DNA of 64,000 nt. It comes from Actinospica robiniae DSM 44927. GTDB lineage: Bacteria; Actinomycetota; Actinomycetes; Streptomycetales; Catenulisporaceae. Positions 45,447 to 47,396 of the stretch are shown here, in pieces. Below the pieces are notes generated by a model. That model had not been told where the DNA came from. It saw only the letters and a list, made by a program, of their open reading frames with translations, and did no database searches. The position numbers and the translations under genes were made by a program. Each line of letters opens with the position of its first letter. Position 1 is the first letter of the stretch. The stretch covers positions 2,725,372-2,789,371 of the forward strand of contig NZ_KI632511.1 in NCBI RefSeq assembly GCF_000504285.1. The letters run 5' to 3'.

Positions 45447-46523
45447 CTAATAGAGGGCGTCCATGGCCTGGCGGACTTCGACGAGCGTGGCGTCGGCGAC
45501 GGCGTTCGCCCGTTCGTTGCCCGCGCGCAGGATCTGCCGGAGGTAGCCGCGGTCCTCGGCGTACTCGGCACGGCGGGCGCGGATCGGCGCGAGGTAGCTG
45601 TTGACGGCGTCGGTGACCGTCCTTTTCAGCGCCGCGGCTCCGGCTGAGCCGATCTCCTCGGCGACGGCTTCCGGAGCGCGGTCCTGACAGAGGGCTGCCA
45701 GCAGGAGAAGCGACGCGACCTGGGGCCGCGCGACCGGGTCGTAGGTGATGTGGCGCTCGACGTCGGTCGTGGCGCCCTTGATCAGGCGGGCCGTCTCGTC
45801 CGCGTCGGCGGCGAGGGCGATCGCGTTGCCCCGGCTCTTGCTCATCTTCGTCCCGTCGGTGCCGAGCAGCAGCGGCGCGTTGGACAGCAGCACGTCGGGC
45901 CGCGGGAAGACGACGCCGTAGCGCTCGTTGAAGCGCCGGGCCACGGTCCGGGTGAGCTCGACGTGCGGAAGCTGGTCGCGGCCGACCGGCACCAGGTTGG
46001 CCTTGCAGAACAGGATGTCGGCGGCCTGATGGACGGGGTAGGTGTACATCAGGCCGCTGACCGCGGCTTGGCGCGAGTGGGCGATCTCGTCCTTGACGGT
46101 CGGGTTGCGTTCGAGTTCGGCGATGGACACCAGGCTGAGGAACGGCAGCATCAGCTGGTTGAGCGCGGGCACGGCGCTGTGCGTGAAGATCGTGCTGCGC
46201 GCCGGGTCGATGCCGATGGCGAGGTAGTCGAGCACCAGTTCCTCGACGTACTCGGTCAGGTTGTCGGCGACGTCGCGGTCGGTCAGCACCTGGTAGTCGG
46301 CGATGAGCACGTACGTCTCCACGCCGAGGTCCTGCAGCCGGACGCGGTTGTGCAGCGTGCCGAAGTAGTGGCCGAGGTGCAGCCGGCCGGTGGGCCGGTC
46401 GCCGGTGAGGATGCGGAACTGCCCCGGGTCGGCGCTGATCAGCTCTTCCAGATCACTGCTGCGCGCCTGCGCCGCGGAGATGGAGATGGGCGCGGCGGGA
46501 GTGGTAGTGGCGATGGCGGACAT
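45447..46523 (-). CDS. trpS: tryptophanyl-tRNA synthetase, auxiliary (TrpRS-II-like) type
   Basis: 358 residues, class I. HIGH motif as LHLGHYFG (about 48-55) inside TGDRPTGRLHLGH, and KMSKS at about 224-228 (GTDGTKMSKSRGN). The TGDRPTG...HLGH and NRVRLQDLG style matches the auxiliary type (Deinococcus TrpRS-II, Streptomyces TrpRS1) rather than the housekeeping SGIQPTGxLHLGN form. Streptomyces TrpRS1 confers indolmycin resistance and is controlled by ribosome-mediated attenuation; the leader here has the matching features (next entries). CAAGGAGAC lies upstream of ATG 46523. Confidence 0.92.
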   Translation of the reverse strand: MSAIATTTPAAPISISAAQARSSDLEELISADPGQFRILTGDRPTGRLHLGHYFGTLHNRVRLQDLGVETYVLIADYQVLTDRDVADNLTEYVEELVLDYLAIGIDPARSTIFTHSAVPALNQLMLPFLSLVSIAELERNPTVKDEIAHSRQAAVSGLMYTYPVHQAADILFCKANLVPVGRDQLPHVELTRTVARRFNERYGVVFPRPDVLLSNAPLLLGTDGTKMSKSRGNAIALAADADETARLIKGATTDVERHITYDPVARPQVASLLLLAALCQDRAPEAVAEEIGSAGAAALKRTVTDAVNSYLAPIRARRAEYAEDRGYLRQILRAGNERANAVADATLVEVRQAMDALY

Positions 46524-46596
46524 GTCGAAGTCTCCTTGAGGTCAGTCGCATACGCCGTCAGGACGTCACGACCCGGTGCTCCCCAGGGGACGACGA

Positions 46597-46622
46597 AAGG
46601 GCCGTTCATCCGAACGGCCCTT
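46597..46622 (-). terminator. transcription attenuator hairpin in the trpS leader
   Basis: Perfect 11-bp stem AAGGGCCGTTC / GAACGGCCCTT with a 4-base loop, then TTTCGTC, 27 bases after the leader peptide stop and 73 bases before trpS. The GC-rich segments between the leader peptide and this stem (GCGGCCGCCTCGCAGGCGC) could form an alternative antiterminator. Confidence 0.82.
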
Positions 46623-46648
46623 GTTTCGCGCCTGCGAGGCGGCCGCTC

Positions 46649-46690
46649 CTAAGTGGAGCGCCACCAGCCCAGACACGAGGAAGATCGCAT
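46649..46690 (-). CDS. trp leader peptide with tandem Trp codons
   Basis: Thirteen residues, MRSSSCLGWWRST then TAG. Trp codons 9 and 10 (46661-46666) are adjacent; Trp is the rarest amino acid, so WW in a 13-residue peptide just before trpS is strong evidence of a leader. No ribosome binding site is visible. A TAGAAT box ends 6 bases before the ATG, which suggests a leaderless mRNA. Ribosome stalling at WW under low charged tRNA-Trp would favour antitermination. Confidence 0.82.
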   Translation of the reverse strand: MRSSSCLGWWRST

Positions 46691-46696
46691 GCCCGC

Positions 46697-46702
46697 ATTC
46701 TA
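46697..46702 (-). promoter_or_regulatory. -10 hexamer of the trpS leader transcript
   Basis: TAGAAT on the minus strand, 6 bases before the leader ATG, placing the transcription start at or next to the A of ATG. No good -35 hexamer is visible 17-18 bases upstream. Confidence 0.55.
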
Positions 46703-46730
46703 GCGAAGATCGGCGCCGGAGGGGACTGCG

Positions 46731-47396
46731 TTACGCGATTCGTTCGATGGTCGCCAGCCACGCGGGAGCGCCGTCTTCGCCATGGAAGCGGGTCTGGATG
46801 CGCGTGCTCTCGAGCGCTTCGATCCGCCAGCCGGACTCCGCGTTGAACGAGACGTCGAACTCGGCGCGGCCCACCGGGTGCGGGCCGGGCTCGGGGCCCT
46901 CGTCGCTGAAGCAGAGCACGTGCAGCGTCCCCTCGGGCGCGGTCACCAGGGCGAGGCTGGCGACGTAGTCCCGGCGCTCGTCCTCGTCGAAGGTGTGAAA
47001 GAGCCCGCAGTCGAGCACGGTGTCGAAGGTGCTGCCGAGGCGCTGGAGCCGGAACGCGTCGGCGGTCGCGAAGCGGGCCGGGATGCCGCGGGCTTCGGAC
47101 TTGGCCCGGGCTATGGCCAGCGCGGTGGGCGCGACGTCCACGCCGAGCACGTCGAGGCCGGTGGCGGCGATGTGCAGGCTGTTCTCGCCGGTCCCGCAGC
47201 CGACGTCGAGCACCGTCCCGGTGAACCCGCCGTCCGCCACCACCCGCGCGACGGCCGGCTGCGGCCTGCCGATGTCCCAGGGCGCGGGTTCGCCCAGGTA
47301 GGAGGCCTCCCAGGGCTGCCCGGCGAGCCGCTCGTGGCTGGTGCGCCGCCGGTCGCCGTAGGGATCGCGGGACAGGTCGCTCGTTGCTGCGGACAC
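46731..47396 (-). CDS. class I SAM-dependent methyltransferase (Methyltransf_25/11-like)
   Basis: 221 residues. SAM motif I is VLDVGCGTGENSLHIA (about 62-77), followed by VLGVDVAPTALAIARAK, ATADAFRL and FDTVLDCGLFHTF. The N-terminal GQPWEASYLGEPAPWDIGRP is typical of the thiopurine/chalcogen-type small-molecule methyltransferases seen in actinomycetes. Substrate unknown. Located upstream of the trpS leader promoter. Confidence 0.85.
   Translation of the reverse strand: MSAATSDLSRDPYGDRRRTSHERLAGQPWEASYLGEPAPWDIGRPQPAVARVVADGGFTGTVLDVGCGTGENSLHIAATGLDVLGVDVAPTALAIARAKSEARGIPARFATADAFRLQRLGSTFDTVLDCGLFHTFDEDERRDYVASLALVTAPEGTLHVLCFSDEGPEPGPHPVGRAEFDVSFNAESGWRIEALESTRIQTRFHGEDGAPAWLATIERIA

Follow-up and report, generated by a model that had tools for sequence, protein, structure and literature searches.

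Organization of the leader and synthetase region

The window (the whole stretch of DNA that was analysed, 64,000 nt long) carries a gene for an auxiliary tryptophanyl-tRNA synthetase, trpS1, preceded by a short open reading frame and a hairpin, the hairpin sitting between this leader ORF and trpS (Table 1). An earlier note on this DNA had singled out the leader for two adjacent Trp codons, for a TAGAAT box 6 bases upstream of an ATG that has no ribosome site, and for a perfect 11-bp hairpin with a short T run ahead of trpS. All of these are present in the sequence. TGGTGG makes up codons 9 and 10 of MRSSSCLGWWRST, inspection of this locus shows no Shine-Dalgarno sequence before the leader ATG, and the two arms of the terminator hairpin (AAGGGCCGTTC and GAACGGCCCTT) pair without a mismatch around a GGAT loop. 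The T run is TTT only, and two of its three Ts lie within the stem. By eye, the TAG within the -10 box is also an in-frame stop for the leader ORF, so that an upstream start is not possible. The trpS start codon is the ATG at 46523, which is preceded by AAGGAG; some 60 nt separate the hairpin from this Shine-Dalgarno sequence.

Table 1. Features of the leader and synthetase region, in window coordinates
Feature	Position	Strand	Remarks
-10 box TAGAAT	46702-46697	minus	6 nt (spacer GCGGGC) upstream of the leader ATG
Predicted transcription start	46690	minus	A of the leader AUG; placed from the -10 box
Leader ORF MRSSSCLGWWRST, 13 codons (ATG 46690-46688, stop TAG 46651-46649)	46649..46690	minus	Predicted leaderless
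Putative regulatory Trp codons 9 and 10, TGG TGG	46661..46666	minus	Conservation in aligned leaders
Helix 0, 5' strand (codons 5-7, including Cys-6)	46670..46678	minus	Pairs with 46634-46626 in the window fold
Strand 1, CGCTCC	46655..46660	minus	Would be masked by a ribosome stalled on the Trp codons
Strand 2, GGAGCGGCC	46641..46649	minus	Alternative partners of GAGCGGCC: strand 1, beside the Trp codons, or strand 3
Helix 0, 3' strand, CAGGCGCGA	46626..46634	minus	Directly before the terminator; window fold and covariation
Strand 3, AAGGGCCGTTC, terminator left arm	46612..46622	minus	Sequence and covariation
Strand 4, GAACGGCCCTT, terminator right arm, then TCGTCG	46597..46607	minus	Sequence; very short U tract
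Shine-Dalgarno sequence AAGGAG of trpS1	46532..46537	minus	Sequence
Auxiliary tryptophanyl-tRNA synthetase, trpRS1/TrpRS II type, 358 aa	45447..46523	minus	TIGR00233, PDB ranking, second trpS

The leader is a real feature and goes beyond chance. A search of the 9.92-Mb genome for TAnnnT-N6-ATG-N21-TGGTGG found this leader and no other site, and the reversed control gave no occurrence. Over its 111 nt, the leader has a folding energy of -62.7 kcal/mol (z = -5.73), and none of 200 shuffles was equally stable. No -35-like box was seen at the locus, a generic consensus scan of 46400-46900 returned neither promoters nor terminators, and Rfam, at its gathering thresholds, gave no match in the whole window.

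A nearly invariant predicted leaderless start

The earlier note had also proposed aligning the trpS1 leaders of related genomes. We compiled 118 trpRS1 loci, namely that of the window, 8 of the same family, 29 of the same order and a named set of 80. In the order search, 77 of 391 genomes gave a strong match, and the best 30 places were taken as loci; the named set is the best 80 of 559 relatives. Some genomes are included twice, for example as L042 and L108, which are identical upstream. When a leader was defined as a Trp ORF with TAnnnT 5 to 8 nt before an ATG or GTG, a leader comparable to that of the window was found at 107 of the 118 loci listed. Within this group, the distance from box to start is 6 nt in 90 and 7 nt in 17, the start codon is ATG in 98 and GTG in 9, and 97 peptides are 13 aa long; two Trp codons are present in 97 leaders and one in 10.

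Because this rule itself uses the box, the search was repeated with the peptide rule only, which picked 109 ORFs. TAnnnT lies 6 or 7 nt before the start in 106 of them (the remaining three are false ORFs at L071 and L126 and a start inside the L035 leader), and elsewhere in the span of 0 to 54 nt only four boxes were present. Shine-Dalgarno matches of at least 4 nt were lacking in 107 of the 109; for comparison, trpS starts had such a match at 76 of the 118 loci and none at 42. The mean distance from box to transcription start given for S. lividans in the relevant part of PMC8079986 is 6.3 nt. The leaderless start that the earlier note had predicted is thus nearly invariant, as judged from sequence, in the leaders examined, and it has probably been selected.

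A different reading of the same region is that transcription comes from the upstream methyltransferase-like gene or from a promoter farther upstream, that the ORF is translated by another route and that the box is incidental. That gene is on the same strand as the leader, with an ORF end at 46731, about 40 nt before the leader ATG, and the missing -35 box and the empty promoter scan would suit transcription from farther upstream. However, this would leave without explanation the box at 6 or 7 nt from ORFs that were picked without it, as well as the near-absence of Shine-Dalgarno matches from the same ORFs, and S. lividans trpL2 is reported to be leaderless from RNA-seq (PMC8079986, in the portion available). 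We therefore regard a leadered transcript as very improbable and retain the leaderless start.

As to promoter sequence, no -35 consensus appears upstream of the -10 box in the 94 distinct leader upstream strings; a G stands at -8 from the box end in 82 of them, and there is an A-enriched spot near -37 to -34.

A leader was missing at 11 of the 118 loci (L042, L066, L071, L075, L083, L089, L096, L108, L115, L124 and L126), L042 and L108 being the same sequence. The Micromonospora copies L075, L089 and L096 fall within a 53-member clade of the protein tree (see below), most of which has a leader, yet they have none; L089 and L096 retain what looks by eye like a decayed hairpin, which suggests a loss of attenuation. 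At two loci, transposase genes lie directly upstream, at the leader position: DDE_Tnp_1 and DUF4096 at L071 (1892-2848), where a terminator-like hairpin is still visible, and rve_3 at L083 (1497-2885). Streptomyces sp. A1277 has two trpRS1 copies (L059 and L126), one with a leader and one without.

More distant copies of trpRS1, at 59 to 68% identity, are found on plasmids. In 4 of 10 plasmid records, three such copies have leaders that differ in sequence and share the same design: Microbacterium (MNFNRSAWWWLR), Rhodococcus (MFVIRQAWWRLLSQPV) and Nonomuraea gerenzanensis (MTRFRMWWRPIDGR). All three have TAnnnT 6 to 7 nt before the start and retain Trp codons in differing sequence contexts, and in the fold of the Microbacterium leader a 9-bp outer stem stands at the place of helix 0. 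This WWW leader lies at L178 (Microbacterium sp. No. 7 plasmid B, 1346-1474), where trpRS1 adjoins istAB of IS21, and the strain has a further trpRS1 copy on another plasmid. A Collinsella relative had no Trp ORF in the 440 nt scanned.

Competing helices

Base pairing was studied in an alignment (A1) of 75 of the 107 leaders, from which we left out L035 and L107 (ORFs over 45 nt) and 30 leaders that share more than 93% identity over 100 nt with a retained one. The terminator helix 3:4 is the best kept, with 99.6% of cells paired. Helix 1:2 is paired in 95.8% of cells and has two-sided changes (here and below, counts of sequences and not of independent events) in three of its six pairs, for example CGCTCC/GGAGCG versus CGCCTC/GAGGCG; the antiterminator 2:3 is paired in 95.2% of cells, with a change from AU to GC in 8 sequences. 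An outer helix, helix 0, joins codons 5 and 6 to the segment just before strand 3, and in its six-pair core 92.7% of cells are paired and four of the six pairs show two-sided changes. Compensatory changes thus occur in helices 0, 1:2, 2:3 and 3:4 over the 75 leaders.

For helices 0, 1:2 and 3:4 taken jointly, each of the five observed values was out of reach of all 500 shuffles, and when slid, these helices were paired in 29 to 60% of cells. On its own, helix 0 exceeded all shuffles in cells paired, in cells changed and in covariation (0.397, with slid versions at 0.119 or less), while its number of pairs with two-sided changes was reached by 122 and its number of further pair types by 96 of the 500. 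The control for helix 2:3 was mixed: all 500 shuffles fell below it in percentage paired, in cells with two-sided changes and in covariation score, but 17 shuffles reached its number of pairs with two-sided changes, 497 reached its further pair types, and one slid version had a slightly higher covariation score (0.092 versus 0.085). With that reservation about 2:3, pairing and predicted folding make helices 1:2, 2:3 and 3:4 mutually exclusive. The ribosome-mediated attenuation put forward in the earlier note gains support, as a prediction, from these competing helices and their compensatory changes.

Each of the 75 leaders was also folded up to just before strand 4, and a ribosome stall was simulated by removing nt 1-41, a cut that we chose from the usual ribosome footprint. 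With the whole leader present, helix 1:2 formed at P > 0.5 in 68 of the 75 and helix 2:3 in none; with nt 1-41 removed, the antiterminator 2:3 formed at P > 0.5 in 69. Once strand 4 was added, 3:4 won in all 75, with or without nt 1-41. Since 3:4 beats 2:3 whenever strand 4 is present, an equilibrium switch is unsupported and the switch must be kinetic; in such a model, the decision would have to fall during the passage of RNA polymerase from strand 3 to strand 4, a timing that we assume. We see this kinetic requirement both as a limit of the evidence and as a prediction.

It might be argued that the hairpin acts at another level, through Rho-dependent termination or through translational control of trpS, rather than by intrinsic termination. 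The U tract is indeed very short at this locus, in 29 of the 75 leaders the 10 nt that follow the core of strand 4 contain T runs of 1 to 2 nt at the longest, and the mycobacterial Cys leaders are described, in the part of PMC13236596 available, as translation attenuation. Against this, 3:4 is the helix kept best of all, the hairpin stands well clear of the trpS Shine-Dalgarno sequence in the window, and the likeness of strands 2 and 4 is what would be expected if 2:3 and 3:4 compete. On balance, action at another level seems unlikely to us, and 3:4 is treated below as a putative intrinsic terminator.

Conservation of the Trp and Cys codons

Codon 10 is TGG in all 75 aligned leaders, and codon 9 is TGG in 68 (with 6 gaps and one CGG). 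The first T of codon 10 is invariant, whereas its partner is A in 40, G in 29, T in 4 and C in 2; since this T stays fixed while its partner varies, pairing alone fails to explain it, and we rejected the possibility that TGGTGG is kept for pairing only.

The 97 leaders of 13 aa have Cys at position 6 in 91 cases, Trp at position 9 in 95, and Trp at position 10 and Arg at position 11 in all 97. Such constancy is what one would see if the ORF encoded a functional small peptide in which Cys-6 and the WWR motif were kept for their own sake. However, residues 2 to 5, 7 and 8 vary among the same leaders, and codon 6 falls within the covarying helix 0, where the Cys codon (UGU or UGC) mostly stands opposite GCA or GCG. 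Five aligned leaders lack Cys-6. One of these, L117, has Gly and pairs in six of six positions, and the other four (L029, L037, L098 and L118) pair in 5, 4, 3 and 2 of the six. Based on the variable residues and the covarying helix, we rejected a functional peptide, which we consider scarcely credible. Helix 0, rather than the peptide, would largely account for the conserved Cys-6 codon, an RNA explanation that is incomplete because four of the five leaders without Cys pair imperfectly. A role for Cys-6 as a cysteine sensor was likewise rejected, the codon lying within a covarying helix, although the same four leaders pair imperfectly.

A model for control of trpS1

Taken together, the sequence, its conservation and covariation and the predicted folding make it highly probable that the auxiliary trpS is controlled by a trp-type, ribosome-mediated transcription attenuator with a leaderless leader ORF; the transcript start, translation, termination and regulation are what we infer from them. 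In this model, RNA polymerase would start at the A of the AUG, as the -10 box suggests, and a ribosome would load on the 5' AUG. When Trp-tRNA is charged, the ribosome would pass codons 9 and 10 to the stop codon and cover strand 2, and the 3:4 terminator would form. When Trp-tRNA is uncharged, through starvation or inhibition of the main TrpRS, the ribosome would stall at TGGTGG and mask strand 1; strand 2 could then pair with the emerging strand 3 before strand 4 exists, and transcription would continue into trpS1. If no ribosome is loaded, helices 0 and 1:2 would form, followed by the terminator.

This last state raises the speculative possibility of a two-input switch, in which Trp-tRNA charging is sensed through elongation and 70S availability through initiation, with helix 0 as an initiation gate, because helix 0 and 1:2 would close the leader and lead to termination unless a 70S ribosome were loaded on the 5' AUG. 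The geometry, with the AUG at +1, the Trp codons at nt 25-30 and helix 0 from nt 13, is compatible with such a gate, and folding of nt 1-94 leaves the first 12 nt unpaired, which a gate requires. When the folded stretch stops just short of strand 4, however, nt 3-5 and 7-10 are paired; a free 5' end is seen only when strand 4 is included, which weakens the gate reading, and we think it improbable that the second input exists. The locus nonetheless offers a compact system for asking whether leaderless initiation is part of the input to an attenuator. It would also be a clean example, in actinobacteria, of a spare synthetase of a type reported to be indolmycin resistant that is wired to Trp-tRNA shortage.

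History of the synthetase gene

The synthetase scores 238.9 bits against TIGR00233 (trpS), for which the cut-off is 176.75. The earlier note had assigned it to the TrpRS II/TrpRS1 type, and two findings bear this out: a second trpS lies elsewhere in the window's genome, at 38% identity to the auxiliary copy, and the entries that rank first among 28 solved structures in the PDB are 1yi8 and 2a4m, which makes TrpRS II the closest. The latter entry is named Tryptophanyl-tRNA synthetase II, and we take both to be the enzyme of Deinococcus radiodurans that acts together with nitric oxide synthase. What one paper says of TrpRS II supports this identification, and TrpRS1 is described there as resistant to indolmycin (PMC9437257).

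The two other genomes of the window's genus had no trpRS1 match at E <= 1e-80. Another genus of the family (g3) had a match in 8 of 10 genomes, at 61 to 63% identity, while Nonomuraea and Streptomyces copies, among the best 80 of 559 relatives, reach 83 to 84% identity to the window's trpRS1. A tree built from 127 protein sequences places the copy of the window in a 53-member clade (support, 0.926) that also holds copies from Streptomyces, Nonomuraea, Micromonospora, Microlunatus and Labedaea. Several nodes separate it from the g3 copies; most of these nodes have support above 0.8, and one has 0.08. Given the genus mates without a match, the closer Nonomuraea and Streptomyces copies and the placement in the tree, leader and gene look as if they had been acquired together by horizontal transfer. 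They would then have moved jointly into a lineage in whose family a different version is found.

Other uses of the leader design

An RNA model of the leader (R1) was searched in 396 genomes of the phylum, with 49 matches at E <= 0.01. When R1 was searched in the window's family, the 8 strong matches outside G000 were trpRS1 leaders already known, six of them in the model itself. G016 has a match of 81.9 bits upstream of its trpRS1 match, and beyond the best matches of G000, G016 and G608, all scored 28.8 bits or less; the window's own leader, read on its antisense strand, reaches 26.7 bits with R1. Of eight R1 loci inspected (L139 to L146), only L139, in G608, resembles a Trp leader. Based on these scores and on the eight loci inspected, the remaining matches were treated as chance hairpins.

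The match at L139 (1501-1609, 42 bits) contains the leader MHTPSTRSWWPAS, with TAGGCT 7 nt before the ATG and a hairpin, upstream of a chorismate-binding enzyme (PF00425, 120.3 bits). Its sequence and position make MHTPSTRSWWPAS a possible leader of trpE type that shares this design. In the window's genome, the region before the single Anth_synt_I_N match has two single-Trp ORFs (11 and 17 aa) with no box in the 16 nt ahead of their start codons, and the stretch scanned before the other trpS has no Trp ORF of 6 to 40 aa.

Comparison with known systems

Attenuation of trpS and a leaderless trpS leader are both already in print, and the locus is a well-supported new example of them. According to its title, the paper of Vecchione and Sello (2010, J. 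Bacteriol. 192:3565) places an antibiotic-resistant auxiliary trpS of Streptomyces under ribosome-mediated transcriptional attenuation. On that title alone, the gene and the mode of control are the same as proposed for the window, whose genome, however, belongs to another family than the genomes taken for Streptomyces.

The closest parallel for the leader is S. lividans trpL2 (MMTRTCTQLWRAA), which precedes trpS (SLIV_21112/21110). The available text of PMC8079986 credits trpL2, beyond its leaderless start by RNA-seq, with two hairpins that lack a U-enriched sequence; trpL1, leuL1, leuL2, metL and thrL are called leaderless there as well. Like the leader in the window, trpL2 is a leaderless ORF of 13 aa before trpS, with Cys at position 6, Trp at 10 and Arg at 11; unlike it, trpL2 has one Trp codon instead of two. 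We infer that SLIV_21110 is a trpRS1 paralogue. A box-plus-ORF pattern modelled on this single-Trp leader was found in 0 of 383 genomes, which left the S. coelicolor/lividans type without a position on the tree.

Attenuators before trpS were predicted earlier in some Streptomyces, including a candidate before trpS2 of S. avermitilis (Seliverstov 2005, PMC1262725). These trpS and trp operon attenuators of Actinobacteria share with the window a leader with Trp codons, an antiterminator and a terminator, while the text of that paper examined makes no mention of a leaderless start or an outer helix (PMC1262725). In mycobacteria, leaderless polycysteine ORFs act as attenuators (Canestrari 2020, as covered in the review PMC9031893). 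They resemble the window's leader in being short and leaderless and in having codons that sense shortage of an amino acid, but they use Cys instead of Trp, precede other genes and are termed translation attenuation in the accessible portion of PMC13236596. For helix 0 and the near-invariant distance of the box, we found no description in the literature searched, which took in Vecchione and Sello (2010) by title and other sources in part. What the present comparison adds to these systems is a near-invariant predicted leaderless start, an outer helix that would largely account for the conserved Cys codon and the apparent joint transfer of leader and gene.
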